In this document: one piece after another, positions 26,448 through 63,919 of the stretch
Numbering within the stretch: position 1 is the stretch's first letter
Layout of the letters: each line of letters begins with the position of its first letter
DNA from: Rhizomucor pusillus
Taxonomy: Eukaryota > Mucoromycota > Mucoromycetes > Mucorales > Lichtheimiaceae
Assembly (NCBI GenBank): GCA_900175165.2
Contig: FWWN02000671.1
Location: 125,198 to 189,197 of the forward strand
DNA: 64,000 nt
Direction of reading: 5' to 3'
Notes under the pieces: generated by a model
Told to the model about the DNA's origin: nothing
What the model saw: the letters and a program-made list of their open reading frames with translations, nothing else
Databases searched by the model: none
Made by a program: the position numbers and the translations under genes

Positions 26448-27673
26448 CAGCTTCTAAGGAAAGAGGAAGAGAGGGGGAGCAAAGGCGTGGTGACACCATT
26501 TCGTCGATCCCATCTTTTTTCTGGTGTGAAATTGGAATTCAGCAATCTTGTCTGCTTTGTTCTTGCTTTTCCTTTCCAAAAAACCGACGGAAACCGACGG
26601 ACCTGAAGCGTCTGTGGTCAATTCAGCGAATAAGAGTGTGAGAAGTCCAAACATTTTCTAATAGCACTGTAAGACAGTCTGGTAGAATGACGAACTGGAA
26701 CATATTTCGTCGTATAAACTGTGATATTGAGCGACTTCTGGATGCCCATCGCTTGCATACGCGCTCCACAGCTTTCTGTGGAATATCAAAAGTTGCTTTA
26801 TGTATCTCAGCATTTCTTCTTGTTTCGTAAGGAGCGATGCTCTGTCCAACAACTACTTGCCGGAGTGTATAAAATTAATCTCTTGTATTATGTTTTTGAA
26901 TCAAATCAACTTTGAAATCATGACACAGCGGAGAGGTCAAAAGGATAGCCGTAAAGACGCGCAAAAAGTTGACAAGGTCTTTGCTTGAAATTTTACGCGT
27001 CTCTTCCCCGTTCACCTTCTTTATAATGAATATCCTCAAAAGAGAACCTAAGCATATGAATACCAAGAAAAAGCGTATATCACGAACCTCCAAATCCTGT
27101 AAGGGATATGGATACAGCTTCGGTGACGGAACTCGGGATGTCACCCGCACCTGTAGCTTAAAGCCACTTCTAAGGCCACAGTATCATCACTTGATAGTAC
27201 GTCGATATTTGATTTGCAGTACATTTATTTCGTATGAACAGAGTATATAGGATACATTTGTTCAAGTGGCAAAAGGTAATACCTTGTACATGTGCGATGC
27301 TTGGAATCTGGCAAACCTTCATATACGAAAATATTTGGATAATCCAAACGACTTTTCAGTTGATCGCCATTTACATCCCAGACTTTCTTCGCAACGTGCT
27401 ACCGATTGTGCGGTGTGCTCATCGATCACGACGTGGAAGACCTCGTAAGGATGCTTAAGTACATGCCTTGATAAGCTTTGGAACTCACCGCCATCCAACC
27501 CAGCCATCCAGCCGTCGAAGTCCTGCATGGGTCGACGATTTGCACACAACTTTCAGTTCCTTCCAACAATGTCGGAGGCAACCTGATAACGGTGGTTTGT
27601 GAACGATATTTGACATGGAGCTGCAATAAAATGCTGATGGCTAGATTTAGCACCGCTATATGACATTCCAAAC
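26448..27673. other. Gene-poor region between the kinase and the Fanzor gene
   Basis: Holds the kinase promoter and about 1 kb of unassigned DNA. Two pieces look partly coding: minus 26658-26810, a peptide ending HPEVAQYHSLYDEIC before FYQTVLQCY, and plus 27266-27448, beginning LYMCDAWNLANLHIRKYL. Neither can be joined to a gene or placed in a family, so they may be decayed mobile-element sequence. Confidence 0.4.
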
Positions 27674-30391
27674 ATGGATAATACACTTAAAAGTGTTCTC
27701 GCAGACCGGTACGCTCGACAAGTTTTGCAAAGTAATATCTGCATATATTTCGCACATAAAACTAGTTGCTTATATTATAAATGTCTGCAGACGTAAAAGA
27801 GCATATCACCAGAAATATTCCTCGTTATATGCAAAACACATGTGAAAAATATTGCGAAATTATACGTGACAACTACGGAGATCTCTTTCCTGGCACAGAA
27901 CACGCGATTGGTAACGCATGACTTTCTATCATTGATGATAGTGTATTAATCTTACTTGTAGCTAAACAGTGGACCGCAAGCATAATGAATCATTCCGCCA
28001 CACCACCTGCAGAATTCGACGATTATATCAATTTACAAGATGCATACATGTATGTACCAAAATACAGGATGTATTTTTATTAGTTCAATTATTAATCCAT
28101 AAAGGTTTAGGGAAATGCATCAGCAATATGAAGACATTTGACTGAAATTGACCTAATTGCCTACAGCCAAGGACGCTCCAGAGGGATAACGACACAATTC
28201 TTAATTGGTGTCACTCGTTTTAGTCGCTGGTTATCGGAAGTAGTACATGCAATCGAAGGAAGAACCTGGTCCCTGTTCCCCCTGGGAAGCCAGCAGATCA
28301 GGTTCTTTGACATTGATACAAGATGTCTATGGGCGTTACTGCGATCGTCGTTCCTACAGGACAGAAGCCAGGCATTCCCGCCGAGGTTAATAACTGCGAA
28401 CCATAGATTCGTCTCCTTGCCGAACTTCGAACAAGATCATCGATCCCTGGTCCGCAAACAGGAATTCTGGGAAGATATTATGGACATCGATCATATCCAG
28501 CGCCGTCGATGGTGGTATGGAGCATCAGGTATACGTCTTTTTGATATCTGATCGTTTCAAGCGCTAAGATATTTACATGCCTCTACAGCAGAGAACCTTG
28601 CAGGTTCACCGATTAGATTTGCATTCTTCATAAGAACCGACGGTTACACTGCCCACGCTTTATTCGAGAGACCCAAGACGAACAATGGAGGTAAAAATAA
28701 TTTGTTAAAACAGTTGATGTTGCAGCAGCTAATACCTATCGTGGCAGAGGAATATCCCGCAACCAGAAACGAATTACAAAAGCTCCTTAGAGACATGGAC
28801 GTAGGAGCTTGGCAAACAGGGATATATCACTTATCTAAACGGCCTCAGGGTCTCGATGCCATCCACCTTCAGAATAGCCGAATCGTCGGCATTGATCCGG
28901 GTAAGCTTCGATACCGAACGAGAGAGGCATACTTTACGATCTGTCGTGGTTAGGAAAAAGGACCTTTATAACTGGCGTCTCCGACGAGCAGCCAATTGCT
29001 CGCAACAATATCATCGAAATTCCAGGCCGGTTTTATCAGTAAGTAGAAACACATAACTATCTAATCATGTTTCAATTCGTTGAAGCTAACTGCGCTGCTT
29101 AAAGCATCAGATCAAGTAAATAGGAACAAATTACAAGAAAATAAGGATCGTGAAAATCCAATATCGAAATGGAATACGAGCAATTACAGCAGCATCCACC
29201 CAGCGTTCCGACGTTTCTCGAATTTCAAGACTATATCACAACATTGAGCCACTGCCATCAGAAAGTAGTAAAACCTGCTCTAGTTTGGGCATGTTATGTA
29301 CAAATATGATCCAATAGTTACTTACGGATTTGTGTAGCTTGTTGACATTCAACAATCGTTTCAAACATAGATAGCATCGTCAAACCTTGCATTCGGCAAG
29401 GCAGTCCGTTCAAGCGGCCATTATACAGGAATTATTGGGACATACTCCAGCAAACATGCCTGTAAGTCATGTTGGTCTATTTGGAAGCTGATTACAAAAT
29501 TGGTATCTAGCGCTCGCATATAAAATTTATCCATACAACTAGCAAGCGAGACCGGAAACTCGCTCGAAGACTCGAGAGAAGGATAGCTTCAGCGAACGGC
29601 TGGGAGAGAGACCATCGACCGTGCATTATAGCTTTGGGAAGCGCCAACATTCCTCATATGAAGACATTCAGTCCATTACCACAGTGGGTATGTTGGGCTA
29701 CGTAAGCAGGCACTGCATTCATCTAACAAATTGAAAAATCATGATACATAGCTTTTCGCGAAGAATCTGGCACGACACGTGTTGGTCGACTTTGTCGACG
29801 AATACAAGACCAGCATTACATGCGCATTCGACAACAACGAACTAATTCCATGCAGAGACATGAATAGTTTTCAATGCGAACACAAGTACGTACTCAACTG
29901 TTTTGGCTGCTACGAAGTGAATTGACTAACCATTTGGGCGGATAATAGGAAGACAAGATTCCGTTCTCTGGCGGGGTTGAACAATGGAAGAGGAAGGAAA
30001 AAGCTTGCGTGCAAAGATGAGGATCCATCGAGCGAATGCCCGGATGCGAGACTGATACTATCGGATAAGCCTTCCTTTGCACCTTTGGAAAGAGAGCAAA
30101 TCTCATACATTCAAAGGTCAAGAAGTGTACGGGCTAAAAGTATGCCTCAACCACGATGGACGCCGAACAGTAAGCCTATGATGAAATGTTAGTATATGCA
30201 CCGATGGTGACTAACTTGAAGTGGGTCACGTTCTTAAGGTCTTTAATCGAGATATCAATGCCGCTATACAAATTCGGCGAATTCTCCGTCTATACATGGA
30301 GACCAACGGGGCGACTGCAGGCTCTAACGAGAGGACAGTGATGGAGCTGTCCAGAGTTATTAGATGGGCTGTAAGTAACAGAGGATTATAA
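27674..30391 (+). CDS. Fanzor-type RuvC nuclease (eukaryotic TnpB homologue), 13 exons, one apparent 1-nt frameshift
   Basis: Fanzors are eukaryotic homologues of TnpB; characterised members are RNA-guided DNA nucleases carried by transposable elements. Exons following splice phase: 27674-27731, 27791-27910, 27962-28049, 28167-28528, 28589-28900, 28954-29038, 29124-29297, 29375-29461, 29511-29687, 29752-29885, 29949-30008, 30070-30169, 30239-30391. This gives about 636 residues. Motifs in order: QGRSRGITTQFL; FFIRTDGYTAHALFE; RuvC-I VGIDPGKRTFITGV, spanning an intron; PSVPTFLEFQDYI; VDEYKTSITC; a Cys/His cluster with VCLNHDG; RuvC-III VFNRDINAAIQIRRI. Exon 7 is one base short of frame near 29200 (in a CCACCC run), so the copy may be recently broken or the base may be missing from the assembly. 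The last exon may instead splice at 30371. Family assignment is good; activity is untested. Confidence 0.75.
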
Positions 30392-31256
30392 GATCGCAAT
30401 TGCAGTGCTTGACCCCAGATATATTAGAAACGCTTCAAAAACACTAGCATGCTTTGTAGAAAGGTTTATATATTTTCTTACGCTACCGAATTTCATGCAA
30501 TGGAGCCATAGTCATTGTAAATCCATATAGAAAATCGACGTTGCTACCTGGTTTTTTCCTTCAAATTCTGCGCCTGGAATGGGACATTTTGCACTTGGTC
30601 TTTGTCTATGTTTGGGTTCATGGACGAATCCTTTTACGTACCTGTCATATCCATTCTGTAGTTTTGCCCTTGAGAAAAGACCAAGATATGAATCCGTAGG
30701 CTGCAGCGCGATCAACGGATCTCCTGTTTGCAGGTTTCCAAATTACTCTACGGTTTTCGTTACCTATTTTCATTGTTTGTGATATGAGGTCCTGATAAGC
30801 TCCTTGCACGTGAGTCTGCGATGCCCTCTTGGTTGCTAGTTGAACGCATTCATTCAGCTATTAGCAAATAGAGATTATTCCCAACTTTCCATCTACAAGC
30901 TTTTGCAGTGCTTTAAATCATTCCACTGTTAGAGTGCAGTTTTGTGTTGCGGCTTTCGCCTTTCACTAACGGATAAGGAGGATACCATTGACAAGCCAAA
31001 TATATTCATACAATGCGGGTGTCCCTGAGTTTCAGACCACGAACGGCCTTCATAATACTCCATAATTGAAAGCAATTATCTCAAGCAAATTCCTCCAAAA
31101 TTTGTTTGCAGTGGCAAAACCTAAATGTACTGATTTTAAGATATGCATAGCAGTAGTAGTCACGTTCTACATAGTCCAAAGCATTCAATACTATCACTCG
31201 ACAGAGAAATACAGGCAATCACATGTATATTTACAGATTCGTCGATTCCTACTCTC
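30392..31256. other. Downstream flank of the Fanzor gene; possible guide-RNA region
   Basis: About 865 bp without a convincing gene. In characterised Fanzors the guide (omega) RNA is made from the 3' end of the gene and its flank, so if one exists it should begin around or after 30.3 kb. I see no diagnostic structure by eye and no confident terminal repeat. Open frames here (for example minus 30512-30715) have no recognisable family. Confidence 0.3.
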
Positions 31257-33042
31257 TTATTCCAAAAGTTCTAAATGGCCTTTAATGGCGCCGCCAACGC
31301 TAACACGGTCAATTAAAAAGGTATCGTGACCGAACATGGCATCCAATTCATAATATGTCACGTGCTTGTTGCCGCTTGCTCGCAAGCATTCAGCAATTTC
31401 CTTCTGCTGCCACACAGGGAAGAGGATATCCGACTGCGCGCCCAGTACCAACGTTGGCATTTTAATGCCTTTCATGCCGTCAATCAGGTCCTGAACAGCT
31501 GGATCAGTTTGCGACAAGGAAGTCAGCGCTGGTCGCGTTTTCTTTGTTTCCGGAGGTTCGACGACCGCAGCATCATGCATTTCGAGCGCGGACTGCTGGT
31601 TAATAGTTTGTTGCTTGTGGAGGATCTGATCAATCTTGTGCGCGTTGCGTCGTCGCTGTTCCGCTAAAGCATCCGTCGCAGACCGAGACATGTCGAAGAT
31701 ATCCATCGCTTTTGAAATGTACAGGAGAGAATTGGCATCATATTGCAGGCAGAAACGCTCTCCCTGATGGTCAAGGTACGTCTCGATCAAGAAATCAGGA
31801 CACAAGGCTGGTGTTTGGTTTTCCTGTGCCCGCTTTCTTCCAAACCGAAGCTCCCACTCTGGTCCTGATCGATAGCTAGACAGATAACTCGCTTAGTCTT
31901 CACTGTAGTAGAACAATATATGCTTGAATATCGTACCTGATGGTCGCAATTTCTCGAGCAAGCTTCATGCCAATGTGTGGAGGAACACCCTTGTAATAGA
32001 ATCCTTTGTTCCAGTTCGGGTCTGCCATCAACACTGCAAATTCGCGTTTAGTTACCGAAATATGCACGGATATCTCTCATGATCATTGTCTACCTTGCCG
32101 TTGGGTATGTCGCAATGCAATAGAGTATGGATGAGAGCGGGCACATGCTGATACGCTGACGAGTCTCTTTATACGATCAGGGAACAGATGGGCCGCAGCA
32201 ATTGACTAGAATCAAATATATGTTCGAGTTATATACAGGAAAGTCGCTTGCTACAGCAGATCACGATTTACCTGCATTCCACCCATACTGCTGCCTACAC
32301 TTGCATGCAATTTTTCGATTCCAAGGTGATCCAGAAGCAAGAATTGAGCACGGACCATATCAAATATGGTGATGATGGGGAATCTCGTCGCGTACCGCTC
32401 GCCATCAGCTGGATCAATCGAGCTGGGTCCGGTAGAGCCATAGCATCCGCCGATGACGTTCGTACAGATAACGAAGAATTTGTTTGTGTCAATGTATGAA
32501 CCAGGACCGATGAACTCTTCCCACCATCCAGGTTTCATGTTCTTTGCGTGCGATTTAGCGTGCGAGGAAGCCGACAAACCGGTGTGGATTAAAATCGCAT
32601 TGTCTCGTTTTTCATTCAGTTTTCCCCAAGTTTCATATGCAATCTTAAACTTTGGTAAAATGCCTCCGTGGTCGAGAAGGAAAGGGTGAGGGTATTCGAA
32701 CGTCTCGTAGCCCGTAACGACCTTGTCGTAGCTTGGCTCCGGTCCGTTGTCAAGCTCGGCTGTTCGAGAATTTAACTTGTCAATGCAAGGGAAGGAAAGA
32801 GGCGGATTAGAGGAGGAGGAAGAATTCGACGAGGAGTTGTTCTTTGCATTATTGTCTGGAATGCATATTGACTGTGCCACCGTGCTTTGGTATCTGCGAG
32901 CAGCAGCTAATATAAGGTAAGGTTTTGCTGTCAGAACACGCGAAGCAAGAACGTCTGACTAGAGCAACGTACTTTGTACCGCGGGACGTATCAGCACCGT
33001 CATAGGACCTAACGGTCTCTGCAGCCGGGAAAACACTCTCAT
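31257..33042 (-). CDS. MET2: Homoserine O-acetyltransferase
   Basis: Transfers acetyl from acetyl-CoA to homoserine, the committed step toward methionine in fungi. Alpha/beta-hydrolase fold. The first exon (from 33042) encodes an Arg-rich leader, [18 protein letters not shown], that looks like a mitochondrial presequence. The next has a Ser/Asn-rich linker and then [20 protein letters not shown]. The oxyanion/nucleophile region is [10 protein letters not shown], split by an intron. [20 protein letters not shown] residues follow. The catalytic Asp is in [15 protein letters not shown] and the His in [13 protein letters not shown] lid insertion (about 31500-31700) is rich in Lys, Gln and Asn. 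It could be the homoserine O-succinyltransferase-like relative, but the GGMQ and fungal context favour acetyltransferase. Introns are about 60 nt. Confidence 0.88.
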
Positions 33043-33469
33043 GTTACTCAATGCGAGAACGGTGGTGGTGTATAAGAGCGAAATATATATGCCCTTTTTC
33101 TTGTGGGGGAGATGACAAATCTAGAAAATGACGCGATGATCGTCCAATAAAATTCTTCCCACAAAGTATTGCTCTTTTTGACAGCATTTCCACTAAGCAA
33201 TTATAGCTACTTTTCTGATCATTAGGAAGCTCAGATAATGCTCTTTACGATCGTTATAATTTTATAGGTCTATATGATCTTGTGTGCGTTTCTATGGCGG
33301 CATATGTTGCTGTAATTAATGCAGAACTCCTAGAGACGAGAATAAATGTCAAGTTGATTCGGCGCTTGGATTCCCTCTTCTGTCGACATCTCGAACGTCA
33401 TTACGCGCCATCCCCAAACGAATCTCGCGCGATCAGCTTGACAGCATTCCTACCAAATCCTCCAAGCTA
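33043..33469. other. Intergenic, no gene seen
   Basis: MET2 promoter side and flank of the mariner relic. An open frame at 33282-33479 has no family resemblance. Confidence 0.4.
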
Positions 33470-33990
33470 TGCAGAATAAAAAGTCTTCCCGTGATATCGC
33501 GAAGGATTTGAAAATCATGCTACGCGCGAAGCCATAAGGCTGGATGCAAGCCAGTAATCAAGAACAAAACAATCAAATGCAACTTGATCCGACGGATCAG
33601 GCTGGCATTGGATCCAAACGCTACAGAGGCAATGCAACGACTTGGTGCCGAAAACCATGTCTCCGTTAGTCGTACGGACGTTGCGAGACATTATCGGAAG
33701 TCCAGCGTCAAGTCTCGACATAAACGAAAGACCGTCCCGTTGACCAAGGTCCGTCATCTGTTGCGTTTGCGCTAGGTACGTAGATATTGCCAGTGGTCCC
33801 CTGAAGACTGGAAAAAGGTTATCTTCCCGGACGAAATCAAGATGAACCGTTTCGTTTCAGACAGTGCCGACTATACCTGGGTTGACCCCAAGGAGAAGAG
33901 AGCACACTGCAGCAAATGTACCGGCATGATGGAGGCAGCATCATGATCTGGGGTTGCTTTTCGGTGCATAGCACGTTTTTATAAAGCTTA
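33470..33990 (+). pseudogene. Tc1/mariner transposase relic
   Basis: Blocks in different frames match Tc1/mariner (IS630-like) transposases. SSRDIAKDLKI at about 33480 belongs to the helix-turn-helix. A basic stretch ARHYRKSSVKSRHKRK lies near 33690. The catalytic-domain block WSPEDWKKVIFPDEIKMNRF, with its DE-type motif, is at about 33790. GSIMIWGCF lies at about 33940 and is the start of the second catalytic block. Stops and shifts separate them; the C-terminal third is missing. It ends about 250 bp before a Fanzor-like fragment, and Fanzors are known to be carried by mariner-type elements. Confidence 0.75.
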
Positions 33991-34239
33991 TTTTAAGCTT
34001 ATTGCAGAAAACAATGACAATAAATTCCTAGCATCACTGACACTGGTTAGTCCATAATAATGCAATGTTTGCTTTTTCATTTTTTAATTTTCCAAGCGAA
34101 AGGATTGATCGCTGGTATATTTAAACCAAACAACCACACCGTCAGAAACAATTGAGGATGTTGAAGACATTTGGATGTTTATCAGCGAATATTGAGGTCA
34201 ACGATACCAAAGAGGCGAACTTATCATTGGTGCTGTTAG

Positions 34240-34910
34240 CGAAATGAATGCTATGTATGAACAGCATCTAACTGTTACAATCTGGATTCATCTCAAGAAA
34301 GAACTTCTCGAGGTGTTGATGACGTACTCTTTGCAAACATCGTGCAGACGGACGGGTACGCCGTAAGTTTCGTATGCAAGAATAAGGAACAGTCTATGAT
34401 AAATCTCGATCTCGAAGATTTCTCGCCAGAAGAAACGAAGACAACATTTAAGCTTTGGGCATGTGACCCTGGATATAGCTCCCCTTATGTGGCCGTTGAT
34501 GGGCATGGTACAAGCACCTATCAGATCCGGCAGGTCTCAGCCAAAGAATACTACCATTTGGGCTGGCTACGACTATTGATTGCAGAGTTAAAACGATGGA
34601 AGAAGAATAGCAGTTTATCAATTCCGCCTGTCTGGTATCCTTCACCCGTTGGATTACTTCCTCCGCAAGACTATCCGACGAGGAGCTCCCTCTCAGGAGG
34701 ATGCCATCGACTTATCAACATCCTGCACAAACTCCTGGTGGACACGGCATCTTACATTTCATAATTGCGCATCAATAACATGTTCAAGTGTGCGGAGGAA
34801 GATTTGGCAGAATGCTTCGACGACATCCATAATTTCTGGCGAGATCATCATGCAACAGAACATAAAATAACGTTCAGTGGCACTGATTACCGGAAAAGCG
34901 AATATGTTTA
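34240..34910 (+). pseudogene. Fragment of a second, different Fanzor-like gene
   Basis: From about 34275 one frame reads YNLDSSQERTSRGVDDVLF, ANIVQTDGYAVSFVC, DLEDFSPEETKTTFKLW, then ACDPGYSSPYVAVDGHGTST and QVSAKEYYHLG. TDGYAVSF, the DPG of RuvC-I and the EYYHL motif follow the order in Fanzor-type proteins of Mucoromycota, but the residues differ from the 27.7-30.4 kb gene. The usual GIDPG is ACDPG here. After about 34600 the reading becomes unclear, and no RuvC-III NRDxNAA motif was found. The upstream part is missing. It looks like a truncated, decaying copy of another lineage; an extra spliced exon cannot be excluded. Confidence 0.55.
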
Positions 34911-35244
34911 TTGGTAACAGCAGAGCCTAAAAGTATGAACCGTTGATTAAGATCTATCATGTATATATGACATTGTACACTTTATGAACATCGATGTCTA
35001 AGCATGAGCAGTTTCTGAAAAGTCAAATTTTCTCTACTTTACGTTGTTGCCATTACCATTACCATAATGGCTTTCTTTTTTTTTTCTTTTTGAATCCTAT
35101 CTAGCTAAGGAAAGCGCTCTCTTATACATCAAAATATGGATGGAAGATATGCATGGATTTAGAAAGATAAATAGGCTTTCTCTATTGGTTGTCCCTTTCA
35201 GAAGCTTATGCTCTGCGGGAAGAAGAGTCCGCTTGATCTCCACA
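34911..35244. other. Upstream region of the RFX gene
   Basis: AT-rich, with an uninterrupted T-tract near 35080. The RFX gene might have an additional 5' exon here: an acceptor-like CCTTTCAG at about 35200 is followed by a frame that runs in phase into the chosen ATG. Confidence 0.4.
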
Positions 35245-43750: not shown

Positions 43751-44735
43751 AAAGAGATAATGTTTCCTTGCGCTGCGGATACCAAGGTTACCATCATTTG
43801 ATGCTATAGAAAGCACATATTACGCTTTGTCTTTTCAATTGATGTTTGTGGGCATCAAGTAGTAGTACAGATGAACTTTGTGTTCTCACAGCAATATGTA
43901 TAATATACACGTACATGGAACCCAATGGAGAAAGCCCATTCGCTCAAAAGAAGCTAGTGATAGGATAATGTTTGGGCGTTTGTCGATGCTCCCTGATCGG
44001 CAAAGTATGCAGGGGGAGGGACACATTTAGCCTCGCGTGCTTGCTATAGCAAGCGATAAACGAACAACCTGCAAGCAAATGACAAACCTGAAGGTATTCG
44101 GCCACCGCTGTTAGGCTGGGGTTTCTGACATGCTCTGGGATCAAGAAATGCTATCTATCATATTCCCATGGTTTACCAGCCCGATCTAGAAACTCTGGAC
44201 ATGTCTGTCACTGTCGTTCCCGTTCCGCCTGAGTATTCGTCGTAGTGCATAGCATCGTTAACGTCGTCGTTGAAGACATAAAGTATAATATCTAGCATCC
44301 AATCAATTAAACATTCGTGCAGTAATATATCCTTTCATCCTGACCATTCTCGTGATCATGACACGTTTAAAACCCGATGACATTTTGACTTCCAAATAAT
44401 ATGAGAAAAAAATCTCGTTATTAATAATAATATGTATGGCTTATCTGAGAGCATCGAAGCTATATATGAGCAATTAGTAGCTGTCTTTATATTTACAAGG
44501 TAATCTGTGACTTTGGACGTGATGAAAACAACAGATTTCGTTCTTGACATTCCTAGGACAGCGTTCAAAATCAGTTTCAAAAGTGATCAAAACTCAGCGC
44601 CGATGGCGAAGAGCATTGACATCCCGCTGGAGACGGGCCGGCGCTTCAAAGACCCGCCGCAACTGAACACACACAGCTTTTCGAAGGAGTTCGGTTTCCA
44701 TCTCATTTGCGCGACTTCCCGCTTAGCTAGTTACA
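43751..44735. other. Intergenic, no gene seen
   Basis: Nearly 1 kb between two plus-strand genes. It contains a short palindrome, GCTTGCTATAGCAAGC, near 44040. Open frames are short with no recognisable content. Promoter of the RRM gene lies at its right end. Confidence 0.5.
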
Positions 44736-62849: not shown

Positions 62850-63646
62850 GACAATCCACCTTACCCTGCACTCGAAATCTTTCCCGCAAATGTTTCCCCT
62901 CGCCCTTCCCCCTATGTCTCCCGTTGTCTCTTTTTACCCTCCCTCGTTTATAGTCTTCTTTTTTTCTTCTCTCACACACACTCACACGCACACGTTTACC
63001 AATAAAGATAAGCTTCTGAATTGTTTATACAAGTTTTGATGTAGTCAACGTTTCTTGACGCAATATACTCTCTGTGCAGGTCAATCTCCCATCGCCAAAC
63101 ACAGTTTAAAGTTCGCGTTAAAGTGTACTATTTTCAACATAGCAGTTAACATGGATCACTTTGAATGTATGCGTTGGCAGATCAGGGGGATGCTCGGATC
63201 GAGTTTCCTTACAGGGAATATGGAGGAGTTGAGTGATATTCACGCAACATGGTGGTACGGATATAGCAAAAAAGAGAAAAAAAAACAGGCAAATCCTGGT
63301 AATAAAGGAACGTTATCGTAAGACTTATGCGTATATCATGTAGCAGGGAAGTTAATTGGCATACTCATGTTAGCGAGCAAGTCTGCACAGGACTTGTCGA
63401 ACTACATAAGAAGAAATTACGGGCAACTCTGCTACATCTAACCTCTCTAATCCAATTGTTCAGGGTATGATTGAGGGCATCAAGGGCATTAAAAGGATAG
63501 TAATATCGGTCCTGAGTACACATTCAAATATCCTCTTCCGTGTGTGGCAACAGAAGGAAATGGTTTACGACAGCAGGTGGCAACAACACCGGACTTGACA
63601 TAATTGCAATGTTCAACCACGGCACCCCGTTTCGATCACCCTCGCG
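62850..63646. other. Intergenic, no gene seen
   Basis: About 800 bp downstream of the HECT ligase, starting with a pyrimidine-rich 3' UTR and a CA-rich run near 62970-62995. Open frames are not gene-like. Confidence 0.5.
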
Positions 63647-63919
63647 ATGTCTGCAGCGCCATCAAGGTCATCGTTTAGGAAGTTTTGGAATAGAGAGAGA
63701 GGGAGAGGAGGAATCGGTAAATCTGTAAATGTATTTACAAGCATCATATTACTTTTTTCTTTTATTCTTCTTCCTGTCTTTTTTATTTCTTTGAGTGCTA
63801 GGATATCCTTCGGGAAAGGTTACAAAATTACGGAGTTTCGAGACCTGACAGGAGTGTATTCAAAAGTGGTGTACATATACACAAGAGGGCTCCGGATTTG
63901 GCAGTGTTATAGGGGATAA
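63647..63919 (+). CDS. Possible small membrane protein, doubtful
   Basis: An unspliced reading gives 90 residues starting MSAAPSRSSFRKFWNRERGR with a hydrophobic helix (FTSIILLFSFILLPVFFISL). A GTAAAT donor and TGCTAG acceptor flank that same helix, and splicing would give a 39-residue peptide instead, so the helix may be intron sequence. It could be the start of a gene whose main part lies beyond the window. Confidence 0.25.
   Translation: MSAAPSRSSFRKFWNRERGRGGIGKSVNVFTSIILLFSFILLPVFFISLSARISFGKGYKITEFRDLTGVYSKVVYIYTRGLRIWQCYRG

Follow-up and report, generated by a model that had tools for sequence, protein, structure and literature searches.

A probable relic of a Fanzor1-lineage gene with a modified zinc ribbon in the genome of Rhizomucor pusillus

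Fanzors are eukaryotic RNA-guided DNA nucleases and kin of TnpB and Cas12 (PMC10432273, available text). A Fanzor-like coding sequence of 13 exons lies on the plus strand at positions 27674-30391 of a 64-kb stretch of Rhizomucor pusillus DNA on contig C293 (the window, meaning the whole stretch analyzed), and the question is whether it is a usable nuclease gene or what is left of one. The locus is most probably the remnant of a Fanzor1-lineage gene that is decaying, and the genome of this Mucorales fungus otherwise holds only diverged relatives of it. Read in this way, the locus shows how a Fanzor gene ends in a genome holding many others, and it draws attention to a sub-family with a zinc ribbon unlike the C4 pattern by which the family has been described.

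The gene model was redrawn exon by exon (Table 1). It agrees with the initial annotation in having 13 exons and 12 short introns, which measure 49-85 bases each and have GT-AG ends in 11 of 12 cases. The blocks TDGY, VGIDPGKR, DEYKTSITC and FNRDINAA, which had been listed in this order, were recovered on the plus strand as the TDG motif and the catalytic Asp, Glu and Asp codons of Table 1. The near-complete frame of about 636 residues described before becomes a summed exon length of 1952 nt, or about 650 codons, with breaks: exons 1-6 join to 352 residues, and exons 8-13 form a single frame reaching position 30391. Splice phase had been claimed to be kept except for one missing base in exon 7. 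This holds for introns 1-10 and 12, leaving aside the internal break in exon 7, but not for intron 11, which starts with AT, or for the last exon, which ends out of frame. The gene is not a chance pattern, since relatives within the same genome match it exon by exon. The reading GQEVYGLKVC.NH (or similar) of exon 12 is confirmed by relatives L040, L042 and L043.

Table 1. Positions of the features of the Fanzor-like locus and of related sequences in the window.
Feature	Position	Strand	Remarks
Exon 1	27674-27731	+	Start ATG; absent from the P0001 model, which begins within intron 1
Exon 2	27791-27910	+	Match in P0001 and in relatives L040 and L041
Exon 3	27962-28049	+	
Exon 4	28134-28528	+	Start backed by relative L040 (HLxxxDL...SRGI); P0001 join differs
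Exon 5	28589-28900	+	TDG motif at 28636-28644; RuvC-I catalytic Asp at 28894-28896 (DPG)
Exon 6	28954-29038	+	KRTFITG...
Exon 7	29124-29297	+	One-base frame break in first part (29124-29162)
Exon 8	29375-29461	+	
Exon 9	29511-29687	+	
Exon 10	29752-29885	+	RuvC-II alternative Glu at 29800-29802; first zinc-ribbon Cys at 29821-29823
Exon 11	29949-30064	+	Cys-containing zinc-ribbon spacer
Intron 11	30065-30116	+	Starts with AT, not GT; splice donor lost; kept in the P0001 model
Exon 12	30117-30169	+	GQEVYGLKVCLNHDGRRT, second half of the zinc ribbon
Exon 13	30239-30391	+	RuvC-III catalytic Asp at 30251-30253; frame broken near 30300-30312; tail up to the TAA at 30389-30391 out of frame
Hairpin over ancestral stop	30333-30352	+	7 pairs in the window copy
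Ancestral-frame stop codon	30339-30341	+	...LTRGQ*
Conserved 3' block	30340-30431	+	Candidate element right end and guide-RNA scaffold
Second Fanzor relic	34261-34761 (best 34318-34647)	+	TDG and DPG regions
Third relic	44121-44277	-	C-terminus and 3' block, same sub-family as the window gene

The closest whole-gene database protein is the hypothetical protein VTP01DRAFT_10036 of R. pusillus (P0001), the sole protein at E <= 0.001 among 5988 candidates in a protein database search. In the parts read in the same frame, it differs from the window by one substitution in exons 2-6 and by none in exons 10-11; in the exon-8 stretch P0001 uses another frame, with one mismatch to the window. Such close agreement indicates a host that is R. 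pusillus or stands very near it. The P0001 model encodes 530 residues, begins inside intron 1, has its exon 3/4 join elsewhere and drops 19 residues of exon 5 as an intron.

The gene had been called nearly intact, which is contradicted by at least three disabling changes. The first is the one-base frame break early in exon 7. The second is the AT at the start of intron 11, where relative L042 has GT. The third lies in exon 13, whose final 26 residues before the TAA are out of frame with respect to the relatives; their C-terminus reads ...RPQALTRGQ or similar, and the same ending is found in another frame of the window, at the ancestral-frame stop codon. At best, the present copy would yield a protein ending before the third catalytic Asp. 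P0001, which comes from another R. pusillus assembly, retains intron 11 and ends with ...TPNSL, likewise before that Asp (RuvC-III), and its model also omits the first part of exon 7. After the retained intron 11, its next donor and acceptor are in our reading the same as in the present model. This suggests that the loss of the intron-11 donor is common to the two assemblies, which on the P0001 side is known from the protein model alone. The main competing explanation is a gene that is intact and in use, in which case the breaks would be errors of sequencing or assembly, or alternative splicing would bypass them. The GT-AG introns, the presence of all three catalytic residues and the annotated gene model in R. 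pusillus VTP01 would suit such a gene, and faults in the assembly could in principle account for the frame breaks. However, three separate lesions would have to be explained in this way, and the VTP01 model itself lacks early exon 7, keeps intron 11 and stops short of RuvC-III. An intact gene is thus improbable, and the patterns of constraint described below bear on it as well.

The initial annotation had also considered the copy to be recent or kept. The genome (24.45 Mb in 353 contigs) was searched for further copies, and DNA searches with both ends of the locus gave no near-identical copy. The 3' query (30100-30900) matched three places, namely the locus itself, C21 (83%) and C235 (69%), and the 5' query (26900-28100) matched its own locus only. 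Searches with the two halves of the protein gave 14 and 16 places, of which 6 and 5 lie in the window copy and the others on C229, C220, C337, C21 and C235. A C-terminal query gave 16 places, with four in the window copy, and added short matches on C301, C20, C332, C198 and C7. Stops, truncations or deletions are present in all five closest relatives (C21, C220, C229, C235 and C337). Of these, the C21 copy lacks its 5' part; over 28836-30382 it aligns in exons as well as introns, with about 81% DNA identity. The genome as a whole is rich in Fanzor sequence: 28 places match PF07282, the window copy not being among them, at least 70 match P0004 (66 of 85 candidates scored), and several Fanzor places have open frames. 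Other Fanzor families in the genome look younger. The sets of places on C21/C196/C261, C67/C121 and C256/C207 share scores or positions near contig ends and look like recent copies or duplicated contig ends.

Constraint on the coding sequence was assessed by comparison with the C21 copy. Differences at codon positions 1, 2 and 3 occur at 45, 30 and 48 of 327 sites each (chi-square P = 0.10), and introns differ at 67 of 466 sites. The ratio of non-synonymous to synonymous differences is 0.53 over 296 codons (bootstrap 0.35-0.80). Neutral simulation at intron rates gave a median ratio of 0.70 (95% range 0.48-1.09), and ratios no higher than the observed one came up in 78 of 1000 runs, or in 94 of 1000 at pooled rates. 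The 73 non-synonymous differences compare with a neutral median of 95.5; numbers as low were reached in 8 of 1000 runs at intron rates and in 98 of 1000 at pooled rates. The ratio of 0.53 also falls inside the simulated ranges for a window-branch omega of 0, 0.1, 0.2 and 0.5. The count of 73 exceeds the 95% ranges for omega 0 (upper end 60), 0.1 (39-67) and 0.2 (44-72) and lies inside that for 0.5 (54-84), which is the best-fitting of the four values tested. This suggests partial constraint at most after duplication, followed by loss, and other histories are compatible with the selection test. Together with the missing near-identical copy, it does not sustain the view of a recent or kept gene. 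For an intact gene, non-synonymous changes fewer than the intron-rate prediction and a ratio compatible with a constrained window branch count in favor, whereas the excess over the ranges for omega 0.1 and 0.2 counts against it. Comparisons with other relatives, which concern older constraint, vary by stretch. Against C235, 34 of 57 differences in one stretch are at third positions (P = 0.0001), and a second stretch has no clear bias (11/48, 10/47 and 17/47; P = 0.32). The C229 comparison shows a weak bias in one stretch (18/70, 10/69 and 25/69; P = 0.04) and none in another (P = 0.37).

Less likely still is that the host has retained a shortened protein, with WED, RuvC-I and RuvC-II and no RuvC-III, for a new function other than cutting. 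The VTP01 model is, with its 530 residues, a protein of that kind, and the weak residual constraint would agree with such a role. Its joins, however, are unsupported by the relatives, as exon 8 is read in another frame and part of exon 5 is omitted. Evidence from a further protein also opposes it. P0017, one of two proteins at E <= 0.01 among 8000 scored, is a reading of exons 4-5 from another source that includes the intervening intron, and 5 of its 122 exonic residues differ from the window. One of these changes affects the Arg before TDG, a site occupied by Arg or Lys in every aligned row that covers it. The same differences count in favor of decay.

The gene was also analyzed for its family. 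In profile-profile comparison, the family profile (alignment A2) matched 15 Fanzor1-type proteins (98.6%, E = 1.2e-15, 346 columns), an E-value to be read cautiously since the profile is thin, with four rows and X at the broken places. The match runs from residue 130 to the end, leaving the N-terminal 129 residues without alignment to the 15 proteins. The TDG, DPG, DEYxTS and RD motifs fall in register, which is a stronger point than the profile statistic. The 15 proteins were collected via another Fanzor of the same genome, and their label as Fanzor1 rather than Fanzor2 is based on a TDG/SDG-type motif and on the match of their profile to the solved SpuFz1 (8gkh, E = 3.4e-8), not on a tree. 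PF07282 (Cas12f1-like TNB domain) scored 21.2 and 17.6 bits over model positions 6-46 of 60, below the curated 26.3. A sequence search of solved structures returned nothing relevant, with a best E of 0.21 for the window protein and 0.18 for the family profile; SpuFz1 and PpFz1 were reached by neither query.

According to the available text of PMC10711439, the Fanzor lineage is marked by a DPG in RuvC1 and an alternative RuvC2 Glu placed six residues ahead of the zinc finger, and Fanzor1 by a TDG motif in the WED domain. The window gene has VGIDPG in RuvC1 and E-YKTSIT-C at 29800-29823, which gives the Glu that same spacing from the zinc Cys, and the TDG of its IRTDGY aligns with that of the Fanzor1-type proteins. 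Bao and Jurka define a Fanzor/TnpB motif that includes D-X(125,275)-[TS][TS]xx and a C4 zinc finger before RD (PMC3627910, in the part available). In the window about 194 residues separate D from TS, taking exon 7 as 58 residues. Because of the profile match and the DPG, shifted Glu and TDG fingerprints, the window gene is judged to descend from Fanzor1. The Fanzor assignment made earlier is borne out by the alignment, and the term putative RNA-guided nuclease is fair for the ancestor, but not for the present broken copy. A TnpB of bacterial origin, brought in by recent transfer or contamination, can practically be dismissed: TnpB has the same RuvC and zinc-ribbon plan, and one of four family members matched the NCBIfam TnpB model (E = 0.35; the window protein did not), but intron positions are common to the relatives, DPG, the alternative Glu and TDG are present beside a strong Fanzor1 match, and the other window frames tested include typical genes of a eukaryote (M41 protease, kinase, cullin, HECT ligase, eIF4E, SNF5 and RRM).

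In its mode of action the Fanzor1 ancestor most likely resembled other Fanzor1 proteins, which combine a WED/REC lobe with a RuvC nuclease whose active site is D-E-D. It would have bound an RNA that is transcribed at the 3' end of the element and draws its guide from the immediately flanking sequence, and would have cut matching DNA; we infer such nuclease activity, a guide RNA and mobility for it. SpuFz1 of Spizellomyces punctatus and PpFz1 of Parasitella parasitica share the Fanzor1 plan with the locus; unlike the broken window copy, those proteins are active (PMC10432273 and PMC11423790, available text). Fanzor1 was reported by Bao and Jurka in 2013 from Rhizopus, Phycomyces and Mucor, and as in their Mucorales Fanzor1 transposons there are several families per genome, with multi-exon genes in some and truncated copies in some (PMC3627910, available part). 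In contrast to the families described there, terminal repeats or a target duplication could not be assigned at this locus, and the C4 motif is absent. A literature search found no paper naming both Fanzor and Rhizomucor; supplementary tables, which lay outside the search, may list the window copy.

What is of remaining interest is the unusual zinc ribbon, together with the conserved 3' block, of a divergent Fanzor1 branch. In the window, the ribbon reads TSITCAFD in its first half and KVCLNH in its second, which gives CxxD...CxxH instead of C4; before RD there is CAFD...CLNH in place of the four cysteines of the Bao and Jurka motif. Similar ribbons are found in the relatives L040 (CPFD/CVNH), L043 (CTTD/CQNH) and L042 (CAFG/CPNH), so that the first half ends with D in three of the four family rows and with G in one, and CxNH occurs in 4/4. 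Other Mucoromycota Fanzor1-type proteins, such as P0004 of Umbelopsis ramanniana and P0002 and P0003 of R. pusillus, have TDG, DPG (DTG in P0004), the alternative Glu and, where covered, RD in the same order as the window family. Unlike it, all 12 ribbon-covering proteins among the 15 aligned carry CxxC in both halves. The spacing also differs, as 69 residues lie between the first Cys and the Cys of the second half in the window, compared with 31 in P0004 (counted by hand). The extra stretch contains one His and one Cys (H542 and C573) that are constant in all four rows. A zinc finger is present in many, but not all, Fanzors according to the accessible text of PMC10711439. Because the relatives share it, the altered ribbon is, judging by the aligned copies, a trait of the sub-family and not decay of the window copy. 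A related Fanzor on C301 (L084/L081), read by eye across frames, apparently has CASC and CPGC pairs and a similar C-terminus.

The 3' side of the gene was compared among copies. Over window positions 30340-30450, the alignments of five of six other copies (C21, C235, C220, C20 and the 44-kb relic) score above all of 300 shuffles; C301 falls outside this set, with a score of 23 against a shuffle maximum of 44. The C21 copy is too close to say much about conservation, and C235, C220, C20 and the 44-kb relic are the informative ones. Similarity stops at about 30431, after CTTGACCCCAGATATATTAGAAAC or a like sequence, in the window, C21, C220, C20 and the 44-kb relic, and C235 is without part of this ending. 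A right end of the element near 30431 is plausible. A hairpin over the ancestral stop codon has 7 pairs in both the window and C235 and 4-6 pairs in C20, C220 and the 44-kb relic, and it is unformed in C21. The folding energy of the block is like that of shuffles, and RNAalifold on five 3' ends gave weak hairpins with slight covariation. For GtFz1, SpuFz1 and PpFz1, guide RNAs of 75-150 nt are reported whose first stem-loop comprises seven pairs (PMC11423790, available text). The window hairpin begins about 100 nt upstream of where the conserved block stops, and the block would fit a guide RNA whose end coincides with the right end of the element. No convincing terminal inverted repeats were found among six pairs. 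For the left end, the DNA search of the genome matched the locus only, and for solo ends a query with the 44-kb relic matched the relic itself only. Rfam gave no matches over the whole window at gathering scores. The short 3' motif AGATGGGCTGTAAG was tried as a genome-wide marker and rejected as useless alone, since with up to two mismatches it occurred 66 times forward and 79 times in reverse, compared with 74 and 55 for the control.

Ribbon and 3' block may together belong to a side branch of Fanzor1, known here from Rhizomucor only, with a ribbon rebuilt to CxxD...CxxH, a Cys/His insertion of about 40 residues, the nuclease triad kept and a guide RNA that opens with the hairpin over the stop codon. 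This reading is put forward tentatively and is rather doubtful. If it applies, other Rhizomucor strains or relatives may hold members that still work, and such a member, if found, would test the need for a C4 ribbon in guide-RNA binding.

Further Fanzor traces and repeats were observed in the window and in the genome. Within 33440-34914, positions 34330-34647 of the second relic match P0008 (E = 1e-13), and this relic opens with residues like those of L040 (DSSQERTSRGxDD). Directly upstream of it, at 33.5-34.0 kb, lie broken frames that presumably resemble a Tc1/mariner transposase; Pfam gave no match on the pieces of this interval. A zinc-knuckle-like N-terminal pattern, CPTC...HSRSS (or HSHSS)...CP, occurs in some Fanzors of the present genome and of others, namely L045 (C109), P0006, P0008 and P0009. 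The stretches at 31229-31507 and 63447-63722 form an inverted pair with 68% identity and are possibly duplicated genes; an alpha/beta hydrolase domain is located near the first of them, at 32251-32880 on the minus strand.
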